Origin: Natrarchaeobaculum aegyptiacum
Lineage (GTDB): Archaea > Halobacteriota > Halobacteria > Halobacteriales > Natrialbaceae
Assembly (NCBI RefSeq): GCF_002156705.1
Contig: NZ_CP019893.1
Coordinates: forward strand, 372,001-436,000
Length of the DNA: 64,000 nucleotides
Reading direction: 5' to 3'
The position numbers were made by a program, and so were the translations under genes. The first letter of the stretch is position 1. Every line of letters begins with the position of its first letter. Shown here piece by piece: positions 13,429 through 28,712 of the stretch. The notes below the pieces were generated by a model, which worked only from the letters and a program-made list of their open reading frames with translations, made no database searches and was not told the origin of the DNA.

Positions 13429-13539
13429 CCGTCGGACCGTCGAACCATCCATGACACACGCACGATCACCGACCACTCACTGCCGTTCCGAACGACCGCC
13501 GGTGGCGACGCGCCGCCGGTTCGAGCGTACTGAGACAGG

Positions 13540-14361
13540 ATGACACCGACGACGTGGGACGTGTCGCCCCCGGGAGGGTCGACCGTGACCGTGGAGTCGT
13601 GGCTCCCAGAAGCTATCGAGTGTGTCGAGGCGGAACAGGATCACGTCGAAGGCAAACTGGCCGCGATAGCGCGGTTCGAAGACGGCATCGAGGAGATCGA
13701 GCTCGTCCGGGGGTCGACCGCGAGAGCGCACGCGACAGACGGCGGCGTGACAGCGATCTCGCATCAACGGTCGGGGCGAGAGGACCGCTGTCGCCAGGTC
13801 CGAGAGCTCTTTGCCGACACGGTTCGTCCCTACAGCATCGAGGACGTCGACGGCTCCGAGCCACTGCTTGAGTCGATCCGCGCAGAACTCGGTGGCGATG
13901 TCGCGGCTGTACTCGCCCCGTCGACCGACGGCCAGTTCACCGCCCCAGTAATGCAGGCGATTCACTCGGCGACGCGACAGCGGCGCGAGGAACTCGAGAC
14001 CATGGACCGGGCACTAACCCGGGAGCGAGACTCTCTCGAGTCGGCGGCGACCGAACTCGAGAGCGTAGCGGAGACGGTGTCGTCGATGAACCGGGCGTCG
14101 CTGCTCGAGCTGGGATTCGACGAACTCGCCGACCGACACGAGACGCTGGAAACACAGCGTGATCGGTGTCGCCGGATCTGTCAGGAACGGCAGACGGAAC
14201 TCCGCCGACGGACCGGTCGACTGCCCACCGACGAACTCGTCGAGTTTCTCTACAGCGACCTTTCGGTCTCCTATCCAGTGTTGGCGACGGCCACCACTCT
14301 CTACCGGAGCTGCTTCGACGGCCAGCGCGTCGTTCGCGATCATCTGGTCCGCTGCGCCTGA
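13540..14361 (+). CDS. Haloarchaeal coiled-coil protein (DUF7260-like)
   Basis: A 273-residue soluble protein of unknown function. After a short N-terminus come long Glu/Arg-rich helices (EAEQDHVEGKLAAIARFEDG, RERDSLESAATELESVAE, DRHETLETQRDRCRR). The middle has the pattern VRELFADTVRPYSIEDVDG then ESIRAELGGDVAAVLAPS, which I recall from the haloarchaeal family DUF7260; that assignment is from memory. The C-terminus (FLYSDLSVSYPVLATATTLY) may pack against the coils. It lies between the importer and the metal-exporting ATPase, but no shared box precedes it, so a metal role is unsupported. Confidence 0.7.
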   Translation: MTPTTWDVSPPGGSTVTVESWLPEAIECVEAEQDHVEGKLAAIARFEDGIEEIELVRGSTARAHATDGGVTAISHQRSGREDRCRQVRELFADTVRPYSIEDVDGSEPLLESIRAELGGDVAAVLAPSTDGQFTAPVMQAIHSATRQRREELETMDRALTRERDSLESAATELESVAETVSSMNRASLLELGFDELADRHETLETQRDRCRRICQERQTELRRRTGRLPTDELVEFLYSDLSVSYPVLATATTLYRSCFDGQRVVRDHLVRCA

Positions 14362-14451
14362 GACCGACCGAGGGGCCCGGACCGTCGAAGTCGGCAAAGC
14401 ACTTCGGTAACCCGGAACCATCGTCGCTGTTTCGGCAAACCTAAGAATTAT

Positions 14452-14465
14452 TTAGGTACTCCTAA
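14452..14465 (+). promoter_or_regulatory. DtxR/SirR-type operator-like box before the P-type ATPase gene
   Basis: TTAG-N6-CTAA (TTAGGTACTCCTAA), with arms extendable to TTAGG/CCTAA; 13 of 19 matches to the DtxR/IdeR box. A second, overlapping inverted repeat CCTAA-N7-TTAGG occupies 14440-14456. The right edge is 54 nt before the ATG at 14519 and about 20 nt before a TATA-like CAATACTTA (14484-14492). Its presence ties the exporter to the importer circuit. Confidence 0.65.
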
Positions 14466-14518
14466 AATATTTATTCCAATAGACAATACTTATTCCGGGT
14501 GAGAACACAGATACGTAC

Positions 14519-20768: not shown

Positions 20769-21473
20769 TCAGAGAACCGCCGACAGCGCCAGCCCCACCG
20801 CGAGCACGAGCGCGGGCACGTCGAGTCGAGCGAACGAGAGGGCCGGCAACGTCGGGTTCCAGGCGAAACAGCGTGCTCGCAACGCGAGTGCGAGGTGATC
20901 GGCCCGGTCGAACGCCCTCGTTAGCCCCAGAACGCCGAGTGTTGTCGTCCGCTCGAGTGGCCCCCGTTCCGTACCCAGGCGGGCGGCCTCGGCGTCGCGG
21001 ATCGTCCGGAGGTCGGCTTTGAGTACCGGGAGAAAGCGGAAGACGAGCGCGACGCCAGCACCGAGCAGTTGCCCTGGTTTACCGGGGATCGTCCGCTGGA
21101 TCGCCGCGCGGGAGTCCCTGACGGGCGTCGAACGCACGTAGGCAGCGCTGACGAGCAGGATCAACAGGACGCGGTAACTCGCCTGCGCCGAGGTCACCCC
21201 TCGCTCGAGGTCGATCCACGGTGGGCCGACCGTGAGCGCGGCGACGACCGGTGCGACGACGAGGAGCACGAGTGCGAAACGGTACGCCGCGAGCGCTCGT
21301 CCGAGCGGGACGCGTGCAGCCGCGAGCAGCAGTCCCGCGACGACAGTGAGGGCGAGGAGCGCCCGTGGGCTCGTGTGAGCGAGCGCGGTCGCTGCGAAGC
21401 CGATCTGGACGGCTAGCTTCGAGCGCGGGTCGAGCCGATGGGCGAGCGTGTCGTCGGGTTCGTAGGTAAGCAT
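20769..21473 (-). CDS. ECF transporter transmembrane component (EcfT/BioN)
   Basis: A 234-residue CbiQ-family membrane subunit linking the ATPase to the substrate-binding S component. Five or six hydrophobic helices are present, with the conserved N-terminal DPRSKLAVQI and the cytoplasmic Arg-containing motif AEAARLGTERG, the EcfT coupling helix region. It is third in the minus-strand operon bioY-ATPase-EcfT, with a gap of 21 bases to the ATPase. The order and BioY partner make biotin the substrate. Confidence 0.9.
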   Translation of the reverse strand: MLTYEPDDTLAHRLDPRSKLAVQIGFAATALAHTSPRALLALTVVAGLLLAAARVPLGRALAAYRFALVLLVVAPVVAALTVGPPWIDLERGVTSAQASYRVLLILLVSAAYVRSTPVRDSRAAIQRTIPGKPGQLLGAGVALVFRFLPVLKADLRTIRDAEAARLGTERGPLERTTTLGVLGLTRAFDRADHLALALRARCFAWNPTLPALSFARLDVPALVLAVGLALSAVL

Positions 21474-21494
21474 GCGACGTGATCGAGAGGGGGA

Positions 21495-22247
21495 TCAGCC
21501 GGGTCGGTCGGCCGGCGAATCGCTCGCTGTCGGTTCGGTCTGCTTTCGATCAGGGACGCGAACGGCGAGGTCCGCAAGCTCGGATCGCGCACGCTCCGAC
21601 GTCCCGTCGACGACGATTCGACCGTCGGCCATCGCGATCACCCGGTCGGCGAGTTCGAGGACGTCCCTGAGGTCGTGAGTCGCGAGGACGACGCCGGTGC
21701 CGTCGTCGCCCAGCGCGGCGAGGTGCTCGAGCACGGATCGACGGGCGGGCTCGTCTAATCCGGTGAACGGTTCGTCGAGCACGAGGTGTGAGGGGTCCAT
21801 CGCGAGCGCGCCAGCGATGGCCACCCGGGCCTGTTCACCGCCCGAAAGCTGGTCGATGCGGTCGTCCTCCCGGCCAGCCATATTGACTGCACTGAGGGCG
21901 GTTTCGACCCGGCGGTCGATGGTCTCGTGGTCGAGACCGAGGTTCTCCGGGCCGAAGGCGACGTCGGCACCGACGGTCGCGGCGACGAACTGGTCGCGCG
22001 GGTGCTGGAACACCATGCCGACGGCGGAACGCGCGTTCACGAGATCGTCGACGACTGGCGTGCCGTCGACGAGGACGGCCCCTTCGTCGGGCGTGAGCAG
22101 GCCGTTGCAGTGGCGCAGGAGGGTCGTCTTCCCGCTACCGTTTGCCCCCGCGAGCAGGACGAACGCGCCGTCGTCGATCGTCACGGAGACGTCGTCGAGG
22201 ACGGGAACGTCGTCGAAGGCGAACGAGACGTTTCGAAACTCGATCAT
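21495..22247 (-). CDS. ECF transporter ATPase (BioM-like)
   Basis: A 250-residue CbiO/BioM-type ABC ATPase. Walker A is AGANGSGKTT, the Q-loop region GMVFQHPRDQF, signature LSGGEQARVAIAG and Walker B HLVLDEPFTGLD. The start is the ATG at 22247 (MIEFRNVSFAF); a TTG two codons upstream is less likely. Only one ATPase gene is present, as in dedicated BioMNY systems in contrast to group II ECF systems with two ATPases. Confidence 0.93.
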   Translation of the reverse strand: MIEFRNVSFAFDDVPVLDDVSVTIDDGAFVLLAGANGSGKTTLLRHCNGLLTPDEGAVLVDGTPVVDDLVNARSAVGMVFQHPRDQFVAATVGADVAFGPENLGLDHETIDRRVETALSAVNMAGREDDRIDQLSGGEQARVAIAGALAMDPSHLVLDEPFTGLDEPARRSVLEHLAALGDDGTGVVLATHDLRDVLELADRVIAMADGRIVVDGTSERARSELADLAVRVPDRKQTEPTASDSPADRPG

Positions 22248-22290
22248 GGGCAATGTACCACGGGGCTGGGGGAGCGCTCTGCGGACACGG

Positions 22291-22872
22291 TTACACCGAG
22301 ACGATCCGTCGACTTTTGACGATGGCGATTGCGGCGACGAGTTTGAGCAGGTCGCCCGGCAGGAACGGGACAGCGCCGGCGAGCAGGGCCTCGGTGGCCG
22401 TCAGTTGCTGGAGCCACGCCATGTAGCCGGTTCCCAGCCCGTAGATGACGATCAGGCCGATCAGCAGTGCGCCCACCACCAGCGGGAGGGAGGCATCTGC
22501 CGGGTCGCGCAAGTCGGTTCCGCGGTGGACGAACAGGCCGATCACTCCCGCTCCGAGCGCGTATCCCCACAGGTAGCCGCCGGTCGGACCGAAGAGGGGC
22601 CCGAGCCCGCCGCTCATCCCCGAGAAGATCGGAATGCCGATCGCACCCGCGGTCAGGTAGAGGAGGATCGAGACGGTCCCCCAGACCGGTCCGAGCAGCA
22701 GCCCCGCGAGGAAGACGAACAGGACCTGCAGGGTGATCGGTACGGGCGAGAACGGCAACGGAATCGTGACGACGACCGATGCCCCCATCAGCGCCGCGAG
22801 TAACGCCGCACGCGCGAAGCGCCCCACGGCAGCGTCCTCGACGAGTTCCGGCGCGGTTCGTTCGGTTTCCAT
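22291..22872 (-). CDS. bioY: Biotin transporter substrate-binding component
   Basis: A 193-residue S component of the biotin ECF importer, with six hydrophobic helices. Family motifs include FSPVPITLQVLFVFLAGLLL, YLTAGAIGIPIF, FGPTGGYLWGY and FLPGDLLKLVAA. I use the ATG at 22872 (METERTAPEL), which gives the family's usual length. The frame stays open upstream to another ATG at 23076, adding 68 residues that contain a Cys-x2-Cys (SACQTCRRNQ). That extension could be a separate leader or a real N-terminal domain. First gene of the operon with the ATPase and EcfT. Confidence 0.92.
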   Translation of the reverse strand: METERTAPELVEDAAVGRFARAALLAALMGASVVVTIPLPFSPVPITLQVLFVFLAGLLLGPVWGTVSILLYLTAGAIGIPIFSGMSGGLGPLFGPTGGYLWGYALGAGVIGLFVHRGTDLRDPADASLPLVVGALLIGLIVIYGLGTGYMAWLQQLTATEALLAGAVPFLPGDLLKLVAAIAIVKSRRIVSV

Positions 22873-23366
22873 GTCCCCACCACTCTCGTAAACCGGGATC
22901 AAGACTTCGGTTTCCGAGTCGCCGTTAGCCGCGTTTTCGTCCCGCGAGAGCAGCGTCTCCGACGGATCCGCGACACCTCGAGACGACCAGCCTCCGGCTT
23001 CCACGTCGGGTTCCTGATTCCGGCGACACGTCTGACACGCCGAGTGGCTCGTGGAAGACGCGGCTGGTGCCGCCATCCCCTCGATCGTAAGGCCCGGCTT
23101 CCAGTCGGATCGGCGATCACTCACGACTCGTGATCGATTCGCTCGCGCAGACGATCGCACGCTCGTGATCCACCGCTCGAGCCGCCCAGCGAACTGTTCC
23201 CGGCCGGTAATCCGTGATTGTGTCAGGTAGGCCGACGAAACGACCGCCGCGTTTATGCGCCGATTCGATCCCGTGACAGGAGAACGATGCGACAGGGGAG
23301 TCTGCGGCTGGAGGCGGGAGATCAGGCAGTGAGACAACGGTATCGACGCAGCTGCGAGGGCGGGCG
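22873..23366 (-). other. Intergenic region between divergent bioY and the giant protein gene
   Basis: About 490 bases holding the promoters of two divergent genes. The part adjacent to bioY (22873-23076) is open in the bioY frame and may be translated. I saw no clear biotin operator or long inverted repeat. Confidence 0.4.
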
Positions 23367-26300
23367 ATGAACCGACGGACGCTCGTCGTCGCCTCGATTG
23401 CCCTCGTGATGGCAACGAGTATGATCGCCCTTCCGCTGCTCGGCGGCGGGTTCGGTGGGCTCGGAGGTGAGGAAACCGACTCCGGCGAGGACGACGACTC
23501 GAGTGCGTTCGAGGCGGTCGACGACGGAGCCGAGGAGGGTGTCGAAGAAACTGAAGATGGCGACTCGAGCCCGCTCGACCTCGTGTCGATGTCGACGGCA
23601 GCAGCGGAGAGCGGGGACGGGGACGGTGGGAGTGACGACGACGCAGCCAGCGACGACGTTCTCGCGTCACTCGACGGTGGTGACGCGGTCGCACAGCTCG
23701 AGGACGACGAGGCGACCGTCGTCGAAGACGGCGTCGACGACGGGATCGAGCTGGCCCAGTCACAGGGCGTCGAGGTCACCCAGGAACAGCGCGCGGCGGC
23801 ACTCGAGGGTGCGTCGGTCGCAGCCGAGCAGCACCAGGAGGCCTCGAGCGAGCAGATTCAGCAGGCGACCGCGGGTGCGGTCTACGGCGCCGTGATGCAA
23901 GAACAGCGCGTCGAGGTCGAACAGATCCAGTCCGTCGTCGTCGGGGCGACCGACGGCGCGCTCGCCCAGCACCAGACTGCAGAGGCGAGTCAGATCCAGC
24001 ACGCTGCGTGGGGCGCCACCCACGGCGCGATCGCCCAGGAACAGCACGTGACCGTCGAACAGCTCCAGTTCGCGAGCTTCGGCGGCGCAGCGGGGGCCGC
24101 GAGTGCAGCCGGCGAATACGACGTCGATCACAAGCCGACGATCCAGGAGGCCGCACAGGGGGCATCCTACGGTGTCCTCGAGCAGTACCAGCGAATCACG
24201 GCAGAGCAGCGCCAGCAGGTCACCGTCGAACACGTTCAGTACGCCGCGGCGGGCGCGTCCGCGGGTGCCGTCGAAGGGACGACGGAAGCGGCGCTCGAGC
24301 AGGACCAGCGAATCGAGGTCGAGCAGTATCAGGAAGTCGACCTCAAGCAGGTCCAGAAAGCGGCGAAGGGTGCGGGCGCGGGTGCGCTCGTTCAGCGACA
24401 GGACGTGACAGTCGAGCAGACCCAGTCGGCGGCGTGGGGTGCCAGTAGCGGCGCGCTGAAGCAGGTTCAGTCGATCGATATCGAGCAAATCCAGCGTGTG
24501 ACGACGGGCCAGATTCAGGAGGCTGCCAGGGGAGCGGCGACGGGTTCGATCACGCAGAGTCAGGAGGCGAGCGTCGAGCAGATTCAGGCTGCCGCAGACG
24601 GCGCTGCCCACGGCACGCTGATCCAGCGCCAGGAGGTGTCGATCTCGCAGGTCCAGTACGCGGCGATCGGTGCCGCAGAGGGCGCCGTCGAGACGGCGAT
24701 TCAGGAGCAAGTCGTCGAGATCGAGCAGATTCAGGCTGCCGCCTGGGGCGCTGGCGAAGGGGCGGTGACCCAGACGCAGGTCGTCGAAGTCACGCAGGTT
24801 CAGTCACTGGCACACGGTGGGGCGGCTGGCGCGCTCACCCAGCATCAGGAGGCGACGGTCGAACAGACCCAGATCGCCGCCCTGAGCGCCTGCGAGGAGA
24901 CTGCCCGCGTGATCCAGGAGCAGCGAGTGAGTATCACCCAGATCCAGACGATCTCGAGCGAGATCGCCGGTGACGCAGCGGCCTACGCGGTCGCCGAGGA
25001 GACCACCGATCGCATCGAGATCAGCCAGTACGTCGAAATCGAGGTCGTCCAGATCGTCGAGCAGGTCGACGAACTCGAGGGGACGGCCTCGATCACGTTC
25101 TCGGACCAGGAGAGCGACGGTGACAGCGTCGTCGTCGATTCGGTCGACCTCTCGGAAGGCGGCTTCGTCGCGGTCTACGGCGGTGTCGCGGCGGACGTCG
25201 ATCCGGCCGACCTCCGCGGGGCCTCGGGCTACCTCGAGCCCGGAGAACACGAAGACGTCGAGATCGATCTGGACGAGCCGCTCGCAGAGAGCGGGCCGAT
25301 GGTCGCCGCGGTCCACCACGACACGACCGACGACGAGACGTTCCAGTACGCCGAGACCGACGGCACGGAGGACGAACCCTACGTGACCGCAGCCGGTGCA
25401 CCCGTCGTCGACGGTGCGTTTATCACAGTAGCGGACCCCGAACCGGAACCAGAAACGACCCTCGAGGTCGCCGATCAGGAGGGTGACGGCGAGACGCTCC
25501 TGATCGACGAGGCGAACGCGAGCGTCGATTACGTCGTCAGCACCGAGTACGACGGCGACCGCGTCGACAGCGAGACGATGGCGGCCGACGACGCCCTCGA
25601 GGCGTTCGAACTCGAACTCGACCCGCCACTCGAGGACGACGCCACGGTCGACGTCTCGGTCCGGGACGCAGAAACCGACGACGAACTGGCGAGTGAGACG
25701 ATCGAGTACACGCTCGAGGAGGAACCGGAGCCGCCCGAACCCGAGGCGACCCTCGAGGTCGCTGACCAGGAGGGGGAGGGGGACCTTCTCTTCTTCGACG
25801 AGGCGAGCGCGACGGTCGACTACTTCGTCACCGTCACCGACGAGGGCGGGGACGGCGAGCGCATCGGCGAGAACGGACCGTACACCGGCGACGAGACGAT
25901 CGGCGGCGTCGCGGTCCCGCTCGACCCACCGCTCGAGGACGACGCAACGCTCGAGGTCGCCGTGGTCGACGCGGCCGACGACGAGGTGCTCGCGAGTGAG
26001 ACCATCGAGTACACGCTCGAGGAGGATCCGGAGCCGCCCGAACCCGAGGCGACCCTCGAGGTGAGCGACCAGGACGGTGACGGCGAATCGGTCGTCGTCG
26101 ACGAGGCGAGCGCGACGGAGCCGTACGCACTCTCCGTCACCGACGAGGACGGCGAGCAACTGGGTCTGAGCATCCCGTTCAGCGCCGACGAAACCGTCGA
26201 GAACGAGTCGATCGGCCTCGATCCCGCCCTCGAGGACGATTCGACGCTCGAGGTCTCGGTCGTCTCGATCGACGGGCTGGACGACCCCGACGAGACCGAC

Positions 26301-27791
26301 GACCTCGACGGCGACGAACCGGTCCTCGCGAGCGAGACCATCGAGTACACGATCGATCCGACGCCGCCCGCCTACGACGTCGAGTTCGTCACCTGCCAGC
26401 AGGCGACGATTACCGGGGAGTTCGAGGATGGTGACTGGGTAATCGTCGCCACGGGCTTCTACGAGTCCGGCGGCTTCGGCAACACGATGGGCGAGTACGG
26501 CGTGAACGTCGGCGAGGACGTCGAGGCCCCGTTCGAGGGGACGATCACCTTCGAGGTCGGCGAGGAGTTCACGGTCACCGAGACCGGCGAAGGCGCGACC
26601 GTCGAGGTCCCACCGGGTGACTTCGGCGCGGCGATCACCGGGATCGTCTCACCCGAGTCGACGCCGGGTGAGATCGACCACCCGAACCCCGATGCGAGCG
26701 ACTGCATCGCCGAGGTTCGACCCGAACTGCCCGATATCGGCGTCGAAGAGATCGAGTCGACCGACGACGGGTTCGACGTGACCTTCGAGTACGACAACCC
26801 CAACGACGCTGCGTTGCTCGTCGACAGCACGCTCGTCGAGGGAACCACCGACGACGAACCGATCGACGAACTCGAACCCGGCCAGGACGAGTTCACCGTC
26901 GCGTGGACGCCCGAGACCGACGACGAGCAACTCGTCTGGGCGGTCGACATGAGCCTCTACGACTACGACGAAATCCTCTACGCGGCGACCCCGCCCGCGG
27001 GCGAGATCGACCCCGAAGATCCCGCCGAGTTCGCAGTCGAAATCGTCGACGCCCCGACCGAACTCGAGCAGGGCGAGGACCTCGAGGTCGAGGCCGAAAT
27101 CGAGAACGTCGGCGGCGAGGAGGGTACCCAGGAGATCGTTCTCGGAGTCGCCGACGAGGATCGCGACGTCCTCGAGGTCACCCTCGAGCCCGAGGCGACT
27201 GAGACGGTCACGCTCTCCACGGAGACCGACGACCTCGAGCCCGGCGAGTACCCCGTCACGGTCGCGAGCGAGGACGACGAGGACGAGACGACGGTGACGA
27301 TCCTCCCCGTCGAGGCGGAGGGCGAGTTCACGATCTTCGACCTCTCCGGGCCGTCGACCGGCGTCGCCGGCGAGGGCGTGACGATCGCCGCGACGATCAC
27401 CAACGAGGGCGACGGCACCGACGAGCAGGCGGTGACCTACAGCGTCGACGACGAGCCCGTCGACGAGGAGACGATCGAACTCGAGCCCGGCGAGTTCGAG
27501 GTCCTGACGTTCTCGACGACGCTGCCCGAAGGCGTGTCGACGCACACGGTCGCCACGGACGACGACGAGGCGTCGCTGACGATCGAGGCGACTACCGTCC
27601 CCGGCGTGGACGACGCACTCGAGGACGATGAGGACCCGGAGGTACCTGAACCAGAGCCAGAGGAACCGGAGCCGGAGGTACCTGAACCAGAGCCAGAGGA
27701 ACCGGAGCCGGAGCCCGACGATGACGATCAGATCGAAGACGACGCTGACGACGGCGAACCAGAGGAGATAGAGCCGCCCGCGGCCGATTGA
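23367..27791 (+). CDS. Giant exported Gln-repeat / beta-sandwich protein
   Basis: A 1474-residue acidic protein. Residues 1-33 form a signal or signal-anchor (RRTLVVASIALVMATSMIAL). Residues 34-127 are a disordered acidic linker. Residues 128-566 are about fifteen 23-residue repeats of the form VxVEQIQxAAxGAxxGAxxQ. Residues 573-695 look like a DUF7282-type beta domain (ITFSDQESDGDSVVVDSVDL). Three Ig-like repeats follow, each starting ATLEVADQEGDGE-like and ending ASETIEYTLEE. Next come a domain with CQQATITGEF and CARDB-like adhesion domains, then a Glu/Pro tail. No C-terminal anchor is visible. Probably a surface or matrix protein; function unknown. Confidence 0.85.
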   Translation: MNRRTLVVASIALVMATSMIALPLLGGGFGGLGGEETDSGEDDDSSAFEAVDDGAEEGVEETEDGDSSPLDLVSMSTAAAESGDGDGGSDDDAASDDVLASLDGGDAVAQLEDDEATVVEDGVDDGIELAQSQGVEVTQEQRAAALEGASVAAEQHQEASSEQIQQATAGAVYGAVMQEQRVEVEQIQSVVVGATDGALAQHQTAEASQIQHAAWGATHGAIAQEQHVTVEQLQFASFGGAAGAASAAGEYDVDHKPTIQEAAQGASYGVLEQYQRITAEQRQQVTVEHVQYAAAGASAGAVEGTTEAALEQDQRIEVEQYQEVDLKQVQKAAKGAGAGALVQRQDVTVEQTQSAAWGASSGALKQVQSIDIEQIQRVTTGQIQEAARGAATGSITQSQEASVEQIQAAADGAAHGTLIQRQEVSISQVQYAAIGAAEGAVETAIQEQVVEIEQIQAAAWGAGEGAVTQTQVVEVTQVQSLAHGGAAGALTQHQEATVEQTQIAALSACEETARVIQEQRVSITQIQTISSEIAGDAAAYAVAEETTDRIEISQYVEIEVVQIVEQVDELEGTASITFSDQESDGDSVVVDSVDLSEGGFVAVYGGVAADVDPADLRGASGYLEPGEHEDVEIDLDEPLAESGPMVAAVHHDTTDDETFQYAETDGTEDEPYVTAAGAPVVDGAFITVADPEPEPETTLEVADQEGDGETLLIDEANASVDYVVSTEYDGDRVDSETMAADDALEAFELELDPPLEDDATVDVSVRDAETDDELASETIEYTLEEEPEPPEPEATLEVADQEGEGDLLFFDEASATVDYFVTVTDEGGDGERIGENGPYTGDETIGGVAVPLDPPLEDDATLEVAVVDAADDEVLASETIEYTLEEDPEPPEPEATLEVSDQDGDGESVVVDEASATEPYALSVTDEDGEQLGLSIPFSADETVENESIGLDPALEDDSTLEVSVVSIDGLDDPDETDDLDGDEPVLASETIEYTIDPTPPAYDVEFVTCQQATITGEFEDGDWVIVATGFYESGGFGNTMGEYGVNVGEDVEAPFEGTITFEVGEEFTVTETGEGATVEVPPGDFGAAITGIVSPESTPGEIDHPNPDASDCIAEVRPELPDIGVEEIESTDDGFDVTFEYDNPNDAALLVDSTLVEGTTDDEPIDELEPGQDEFTVAWTPETDDEQLVWAVDMSLYDYDEILYAATPPAGEIDPEDPAEFAVEIVDAPTELEQGEDLEVEAEIENVGGEEGTQEIVLGVADEDRDVLEVTLEPEATETVTLSTETDDLEPGEYPVTVASEDDEDETTVTILPVEAEGEFTIFDLSGPSTGVAGEGVTIAATITNEGDGTDEQAVTYSVDDEPVDEETIELEPGEFEVLTFSTTLPEGVSTHTVATDDDEASLTIEATTVPGVDDALEDDEDPEVPEPEPEEPEPEVPEPEPEEPEPEPDDDDQIEDDADDGEPEEIEPPAAD
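23748..25064 (+). repeat. 23-residue Gln-rich protein repeat array
   Basis: Residues 128-566 of the giant protein. Several units are exactly 23 residues, for example those beginning RVEVEQIQS, TAEASQIQH, DVTVEQTQS, EASVEQIQA and VVEIEQIQA. Each has an alternating hydrophobic/Gln strand-like half (VxVEQIQ), then a small-residue stretch (AAxGAxxGA) and QxQ. Units at 276, 315 and 369 carry insertions of about 8-16 residues. Codon choice varies between units, so the array is old, not a recent DNA expansion. Confidence 0.85.
27639..27710 (+). repeat. Perfect 36-bp tandem duplication in the 3' end of the gene
   Basis: Two identical 36-bp units (27639-27674 and 27675-27710) encode EVPEPEPEEPEP twice within the Glu/Pro-rich C-terminal tail. 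Identity at every base implies a recent in-frame expansion. Confidence 0.9.
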
Positions 27792-27933: not shown

Positions 27934-28230
27934 TCAGTGCTGGTGACCGGTCGCCTCACCGAACGTGACGCCGAATCGCTCCTCGAAGAGGTCCATCATC
28001 GTCTGTTCCTGTGCCTCGAGGTCGCCGTCGTCGCCGTGGCCGTGTCCGTGGTGGACCACGTGGTGGGCGCGGCTGGCGAACGAGAGTGCGACCACGTCGC
28101 CGACGATTTCGGCCGTCTCCTGATCGCCCTCGGCGACGAGCTCGAGCAGGCCTGCGGGAACTTCGACTTCGTCGGTCGTGTCGTCGTCGGCGTCGATCGT
28201 GAGCGTAACAGTTGCTACGTCGTCGGACAT
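27934..28230 (-). CDS. Small haloarchaeal His-rich protein (DUF7545-like)
   Basis: A 98-residue acidic cytosolic protein: an N-terminal beta-strand region (VATVTLTIDADD), a helix (VPAGLLELVAEG, AEIVGDVVALSF), a His cluster HHVVHHGHGHGDD and a C-terminal helix (EEQ-type, MMDLFEERFGVTFGE) ending GHQH. The pattern matches a haloarchaeal family I recall as DUF7545. The His clusters could bind a metal, but nothing else shows function. The ATG is at 28230. Confidence 0.8.
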   Translation of the reverse strand: MSDDVATVTLTIDADDDTTDEVEVPAGLLELVAEGDQETAEIVGDVVALSFASRAHHVVHHGHGHGDDGDLEAQEQTMMDLFEERFGVTFGEATGHQH

Positions 28231-28712
28231 ACCCTACCCTCGGGAGGCGTGCCTAAAGGTGCTGTGTCTTGGGCCGGCAGGGGGCGTCTCGCCACGGCCA
28301 TCGAATCGGACACCGCGGCTCGGCTGCTTGGCGTCCGGTCGGCGGACGACGCGACCGAGCCTCAGGATCACGAGGGGAAATCCTATGGATACAAAGTGTG
28401 TCTGGTGATTGATGCGCGAGGAGCGGAGGGGAACACGTCACACTCGCTGAGAAAGGCTAACTCGAGGTACTCGAAGAGCGGAAGCGTCTCGACCGCCACG
28501 AGGGTCACGAACTCCGCTGTCCAAGTTCATCTTGCAGGGTCTGGGTGCTGCTGGACACGGCTTCTCAACCCTGCCCTTTCGTGTGTGACGTATTCTATGC
28601 CACCCTCCAACAGATTGAACAGTGGGAGATGATCTCTGGTGACATCTGTGCAGATCTCGTAATCAAGAGAAAACGGGCAAAACGACCTTTTAGATCATTT
28701 GCCCGTGAATCT
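28231..28712 (+). other. Scar-like intergenic region next to tRNA-Glu
   Basis: Nearly 500 bases with lower GC than the neighbours, especially 28600-28712. No intact gene is seen. One short stretch resembles transposase sequence (28378-28416), and the region ends at a copy of the tRNA-Glu 3' end. Together these suggest a decayed integration site. Confidence 0.5.
28378..28416 (+). pseudogene. Possible transposase fragment
   Basis: The reading KSYGYKVCLVIDA resembles the strand carrying the first catalytic Asp of IS4/IS5-type DDE transposases (typically YGYKLHLVVDA). Downstream the frame loses similarity, so at most a short relic remains. The assignment rests on a 13-residue match and is weak. 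Confidence 0.3.

Follow-up and report, generated by a model that had tools for sequence, protein, structure and literature searches.

The repeat array and its host protein

The window (the analyzed stretch of 64,000 nucleotides from Natrarchaeobaculum aegyptiacum) contains a gene for an exported protein of 1474 residues, in which an N-terminal hydrophobic signal or anchor is followed by an acidic linker, an array of 23-residue repeats, DUF7282 and CARDB domains and, at the C-terminus, a Pro-Glu tail. The features are as follows:

23367–27791, + strand: open reading frame of the exported repeat protein, 1474 residues (ORF list and translation)
23379–23441, + strand: hydrophobic segment near the N-terminus, either a signal peptide or a signal anchor, residues 5–25 (sequence reading)
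23730–23765, + strand: conserved N-terminal segment GVxxGIxLxQxQ, possibly a cap, residues 122–133 (alignment)
23766–25001, + strand: repeat array of ~15 units of 23 residues, residues 134–545, consensus QxQxV[STDN]VEQIQxAAxGAAxGALx
24300–24356, + strand: unit with an additional 8-residue QxQxVxVx module, residues 312–330 (autocorrelation and QxQ spacing)
24462–24518, + strand: second additional 8-residue QxQxVxVx module, residues 366–384 (autocorrelation and QxQ spacing)
25086–25427, + strand: DUF7282 domain, best of 3 stretches, residues 574–687 (Pfam PF23951)
27333–27566, + strand: CARDB domain, best of 2 stretches, residues 1323–1400 (Pfam PF07705, E 2.8e-9)
27632–27713, + strand: Pro-Glu tail at the C-terminus, 36-bp tandem repeat

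The original prediction had placed about fifteen 23-residue units at 23748–25064 (residues 128–566 of the protein). The array is real, but the repeat proper is narrower, covering residues ~134–545. Identity autocorrelation is maximal at lag 23 (0.27, compared to a mean of 0.11 and a maximum of 0.18 in shuffles), QxQ pairs are spaced 8,15,8,15, and approximately 15 units can indeed be counted, 9 of which are exactly 23 residues long and the others carry indels of +1, +2, +3, +8 or longer; the array terminates in degenerate units. Numbered from the valine after QxQx, the unit reads Q20 x Q22 x V1 [STDN]2 V3 E4 Q5 I6 Q7 x8 A9 A10 x11 G12 A13 A14 x15 G16 A17 L18 x19, so that the earlier description of QxQ in one half and Ala/Gly in the other was accurate (QxQxV...AAxGAxxGAL). 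On the DNA, Tandem Repeats Finder returned only fragments of 2–3 copies and did not report the array as one repeat. Since the units are too diverged to be recognized at the DNA level, the array is best viewed as an old protein-level repeat. The 36-bp repeat of the Pro-Glu tail, with copies matching at 97%, is much younger than the array.

The exported, multi-domain setting proposed earlier was confirmed by the N-terminal signal or anchor and by the Pfam matches to DUF7282 and CARDB, the latter as had been named. The hydrophobic segment is directly followed by ALPLLGGG, which is retained in many homologues from Natrialbaceae. What had been described as Ig-like corresponds to DUF7282 (E 1.2e-36, 125.7 bits compared to a curated cut-off of 27), which covers the C-terminal part of the protein and not the array, together with similar ~100-residue repeats (autocorrelation lags 99–101). 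The translation contains no membrane anchor after the Pro-Glu tail and, thus, attachment to the cell surface is only putative. Asp and Glu make up 13% of the array versus 31% of the rest of the protein, and the array is nearly devoid of Pro and Asn (0.2%), a composition consistent with a compact, packed domain.

Distribution, gene neighborhood and conservation of the units

A protein search of the order yielded matches in 88 of 293 genomes (~30%), most with 56–76% identity across the full array; Natrialbaceae, the window's own family, contributed 51 of its 63 listed genomes. All named records are from this family, namely, Natronorubrum, Halopiger, Natronobiforma, Salinadaptatus, Natronococcus and one unclassified Natrialbaceae genome. 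A profile search covering 393 genomes sampled from the phylum recovered homologues confined to the same order. Matches on plasmids came from two haloarchaea and were annotated as hypothetical; no relatives of the array were found among viral contigs. The earlier view that the repeat belongs to no known family was borne out: no family in Pfam, NCBIfam or PHROGs covers the array, and PDB sequence searches with the window array and its family profile gave no match. UipA, matched in PDB by a distant-relative profile at E 0.065, was rejected as a relative, the match being at chance level. No paper on the 23-residue repeats or DUF7282 was found in the literature. The array is a new repeat family confined to haloarchaea.

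In six Natrialbaceae records, the array gene lies divergently beside bioY and genes for an ABC ATPase and a CbiQ-type ECF protein. In the window, these three genes form a biotin-transporter-like cluster on the − strand (20769–22950), with the CbiQ-type ECF protein as the T component. On the other side, convergent to the array gene, lies a gene for a DUF7545 protein (98 residues, E 3.2e-35; 27937–28233, − strand), which is found in all 5 Natrialbaceae records that reach that far, the sixth record ending inside the array gene. Outside Natrialbaceae, the neighbors are other, metabolic-looking ORFs, as assessed by reading translations rather than by a family scan. In 3 relatives, the array is joined to different domains, as identified by eye, namely, thrombospondin-type-3-like DTDGDGLTD repeats (L052 and L058) and a NosD-like beta-helix (L054), and hence looks like a mobile N-terminal module. 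At another locus, L066, an array paralogue and lysine-biosynthesis-like ORFs are flanked in a composite-transposon-like arrangement by two inverted ORFs (243–1238 and 13496–14491) of 332 residues, transposase-like by eye, which share identical first 50 residues.

The array length is near-constant (~438 residues) in about 50 Natrialbaceae genomes, with few insertions in the homologues relative to the window array, mostly of 2 residues; in other haloarchaeal families, the number of units varies. Comparison of six homologues showed that 53 of the 54 units are nearest to their own positional counterpart, with 70% identity between orthologous and 47% between non-orthologous units, and dN/dS of the array is about 0.2–0.5. 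Judged by these sequence comparisons, the array is of old origin, with units that have diverged among themselves and are each kept individually. Variation in repeat number and homogenization of units, which are common in polymer-forming repeats, were not seen in Natrialbaceae arrays. Collectively, the fixed length, unit-by-unit conservation and dN/dS values point to a discrete, closed folded domain.

The suggestion that the repeats form a fiber or amyloid is unsupported, in view of the fixed length in Natrialbaceae and the positional conservation of the units, the lack of a curlin match, and the neighborhood, where no dedicated export, secretion or nucleation partner was seen (neighbors outside Natrialbaceae being read from translations). 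In particular, it is very improbable that the protein builds a biofilm fiber as a functional amyloid subunit of the curli type. The array does resemble curli CsgA/CsgB (Curlin_rpt, PF07012) in being composed of extracellular Gln-containing repeats of 22–23 residues with comparable Gln content, and a curli-repeat model has matched one archaeal protein, the name of which is absent from the text (PMC3521004). Furthermore, both Congo red and ThT stain the biofilms of Haloferax volcanii (PMC4180959), although this staining has no established link to the present repeat family. However, the minimal curli motif, QxGxxN (PMC3521004), is absent, the motif here being QxQxAAxGA, with Asn nearly absent outside position 2. 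Curlin_rpt did not match any of three arrays at E ≤ 10 and had no match in 4 genomes, whereas the E. coli control matched, and hhalign of the array profile to CsgA gave a probability below 1%. No csg-type assembly genes were seen beside the array, either among the Natrialbaceae neighbors described above or, as read from translations without a family scan, elsewhere. Finally, unlike in curli, about 15 fixed units are embedded in a large multi-domain protein. Curli-like beta-arches, our first hypothesis, were dropped based on residue-position statistics and the absent Curlin_rpt match.

Periodicity and candidate folds of the unit

Statistics were collected on 657 units from homologues, many of which are related by descent, so that the counts are not independent. 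Of 707 short intervals between QxQ pairs, 706 measure 8 residues, compared to an A/G interval of 15 (363 cases), 18 (60) or 17 (51) residues and also of 16, 19 or 14; thus, a rigid QxQxV half is joined to an A/G half tolerating small indels of 1–4 residues. Entropy alternates over positions 20 to 8 with beta periodicity (p = 0.0025), and the polar positions 4, 8, 11, 15 and 19 follow a helical periodicity of ~100 degrees over positions 3 to 19 (p = 0.003), each test covering 9–17 positions. Accordingly, the predicted ladder of beta-stacked QxQ fits the QxQxV half but not the A/G half. The accompanying interpretation of Ala/Gly as beta-turns fares worse, given that the polar stripe is helical and that positions 9–18 hold a total of 6 Pro and 4 Asn across the 657 units.

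At position 2, 77% of the 657 units have S/T/D/N, and this position accounts for 79 of their 120 Asn residues; 34 of 40 Pro fall at positions 2–4 with none at 5–16, although most of the Pro come from one orthologous unit and are not independent. Helix N-caps favor S/T/D/N, and Pro is favored at N1, suggesting that position 2 is likely to be the start of a helix. Degenerate units of relatives start with DPKKVQEAA or TTPKIEEAA, typical of helix starts. By autocorrelation only, lag 7 (heptad) is absent from the top lags of the array.

We tentatively favor, at slightly less than even chances, a closed alpha/beta (strand-helix) solenoid domain that makes up the N-terminal third of an exported surface or matrix protein and serves as its scaffold. 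The QxQxV of each 23-residue unit would form a short extended strand stacking on the next one, giving rise to Gln and Val ladders, and would be followed by an N-cap residue (S/T/D/N) and a small-residue helix (about positions 4–18, with AAxGAxxGAL). The helix would pack tightly against its neighbors through Gly and Ala, with the variable polar stripe facing the solvent, and the degenerate end units would cap the stack, producing a closed rigid rod or horseshoe rather than an open-ended polymer. Against this arrangement, neither of the two AlphaFold runs shows it, and a charge-coupling test of helix versus strand revealed no i/i+4 opposite-charge coupling on the putative helix.

The two runs, both of low confidence, disagree with each other. 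With 21 phase-matched rows, AlphaFold produced an all-beta meander of seven antiparallel strands, most of them long (pLDDT 52, pTM 0.37), in line with a less likely reading, in which each unit contributes a single long strand (roughly positions 17 to 9) and a tight Gly/Ala turn; the resulting antiparallel meander or beta-arch solenoid would carry Gln/Val ladders and may self-assemble through its Q/V face. QxQxVxVxQxQ alternates strictly, with beta periodicity and an invariant pitch of 8 residues, its face pattern, QQVVQQ, reads identically in both directions, a requirement of antiparallel stacking, and the extra modules are exactly 8 residues long. However, pLDDT reached 52 in one of five models (30–40 in the others), roughly one in four units would have Asp or Asn mid-strand (position 2), position 6 places a hydrophobic residue on an otherwise polar face, and the supposed turn is nearly devoid of Pro and Asn. 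Foldseek with this low-confidence model gave no match at E ≤ 0.001; the model resembles meander sheets (VIA Z up to 8.6) and barrels of a generic kind, which was not accepted as kinship.

With 7 orthologue rows, the prediction was mostly helix, at roughly positions 4–21 of many units, and together with the N-cap-like position 2 and the polar stripe, this agrees with a stack of ~17-residue helices, one per unit, connected by 6-residue extended linkers and packed in the GxxxG/Alacoil manner. Such an all-helical array is improbable, considering the pLDDT of 34 and that it leaves unexplained both the strict alternation of Q20, Q22 and V1 in the linker and the insertable 8-residue QxQxVxVx modules.

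Comparison with known systems and possible role

The strand-helix solenoid favored here would share with leucine-rich-repeat (LRR) and other alpha/beta solenoids a unit of 20–30 residues built from a short strand, a turn resembling an N-cap and a helix, as well as a ladder of identical side chains and capped ends. Unlike in LRR proteins, the ladder would consist of Gln/Val rather than Leu/Asn, and the helix would be of the Gly/Ala type with GxxxG spacing. No LRR family of Pfam matched the array at E ≤ 10, and LxxLxLxxN is not found, with Leu outnumbering the other residues at position 18 alone. It is possible, albeit well short of an even chance, that the fold of the array is without precedent: a solenoid combining Gln/Val ladders with Gly/Ala helices (or a meander of Gln ladders made of beta-strands alone) that occurs only in haloarchaea, is low in acidic residues and is built for very high salt.

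The C-terminal part of the protein belongs with the DUF7282/CARDB exported proteins of haloarchaea, from which the array differs as a separate N-terminal module assigned to no family and joined, by eye, to other domains in relatives. Two relatives, L059 and L062, carry RRxxL-type twin-arginine signals. Twin-arginine signals are an export route for folded proteins, suggesting that these two proteins fold before export. Our best guess from the sequence is that the array acts on the cell surface as a rigid scaffold or spacer, which would display the variable stripe, together with the DUF7282 and CARDB domains of the C-terminal part, to the cell exterior; binding through the variable polar stripe is possible.

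Large, conserved and as yet without a name, this extracellular domain occurs in most Natrialbaceae, and naming it would allow annotation of many surface proteins currently labeled hypothetical. Given how atypical the composition of the array is for a protein secreted by a halophile, the structure would show another design of a rigid extracellular scaffold for saturated salt, and the array might serve as a designable repeat scaffold.
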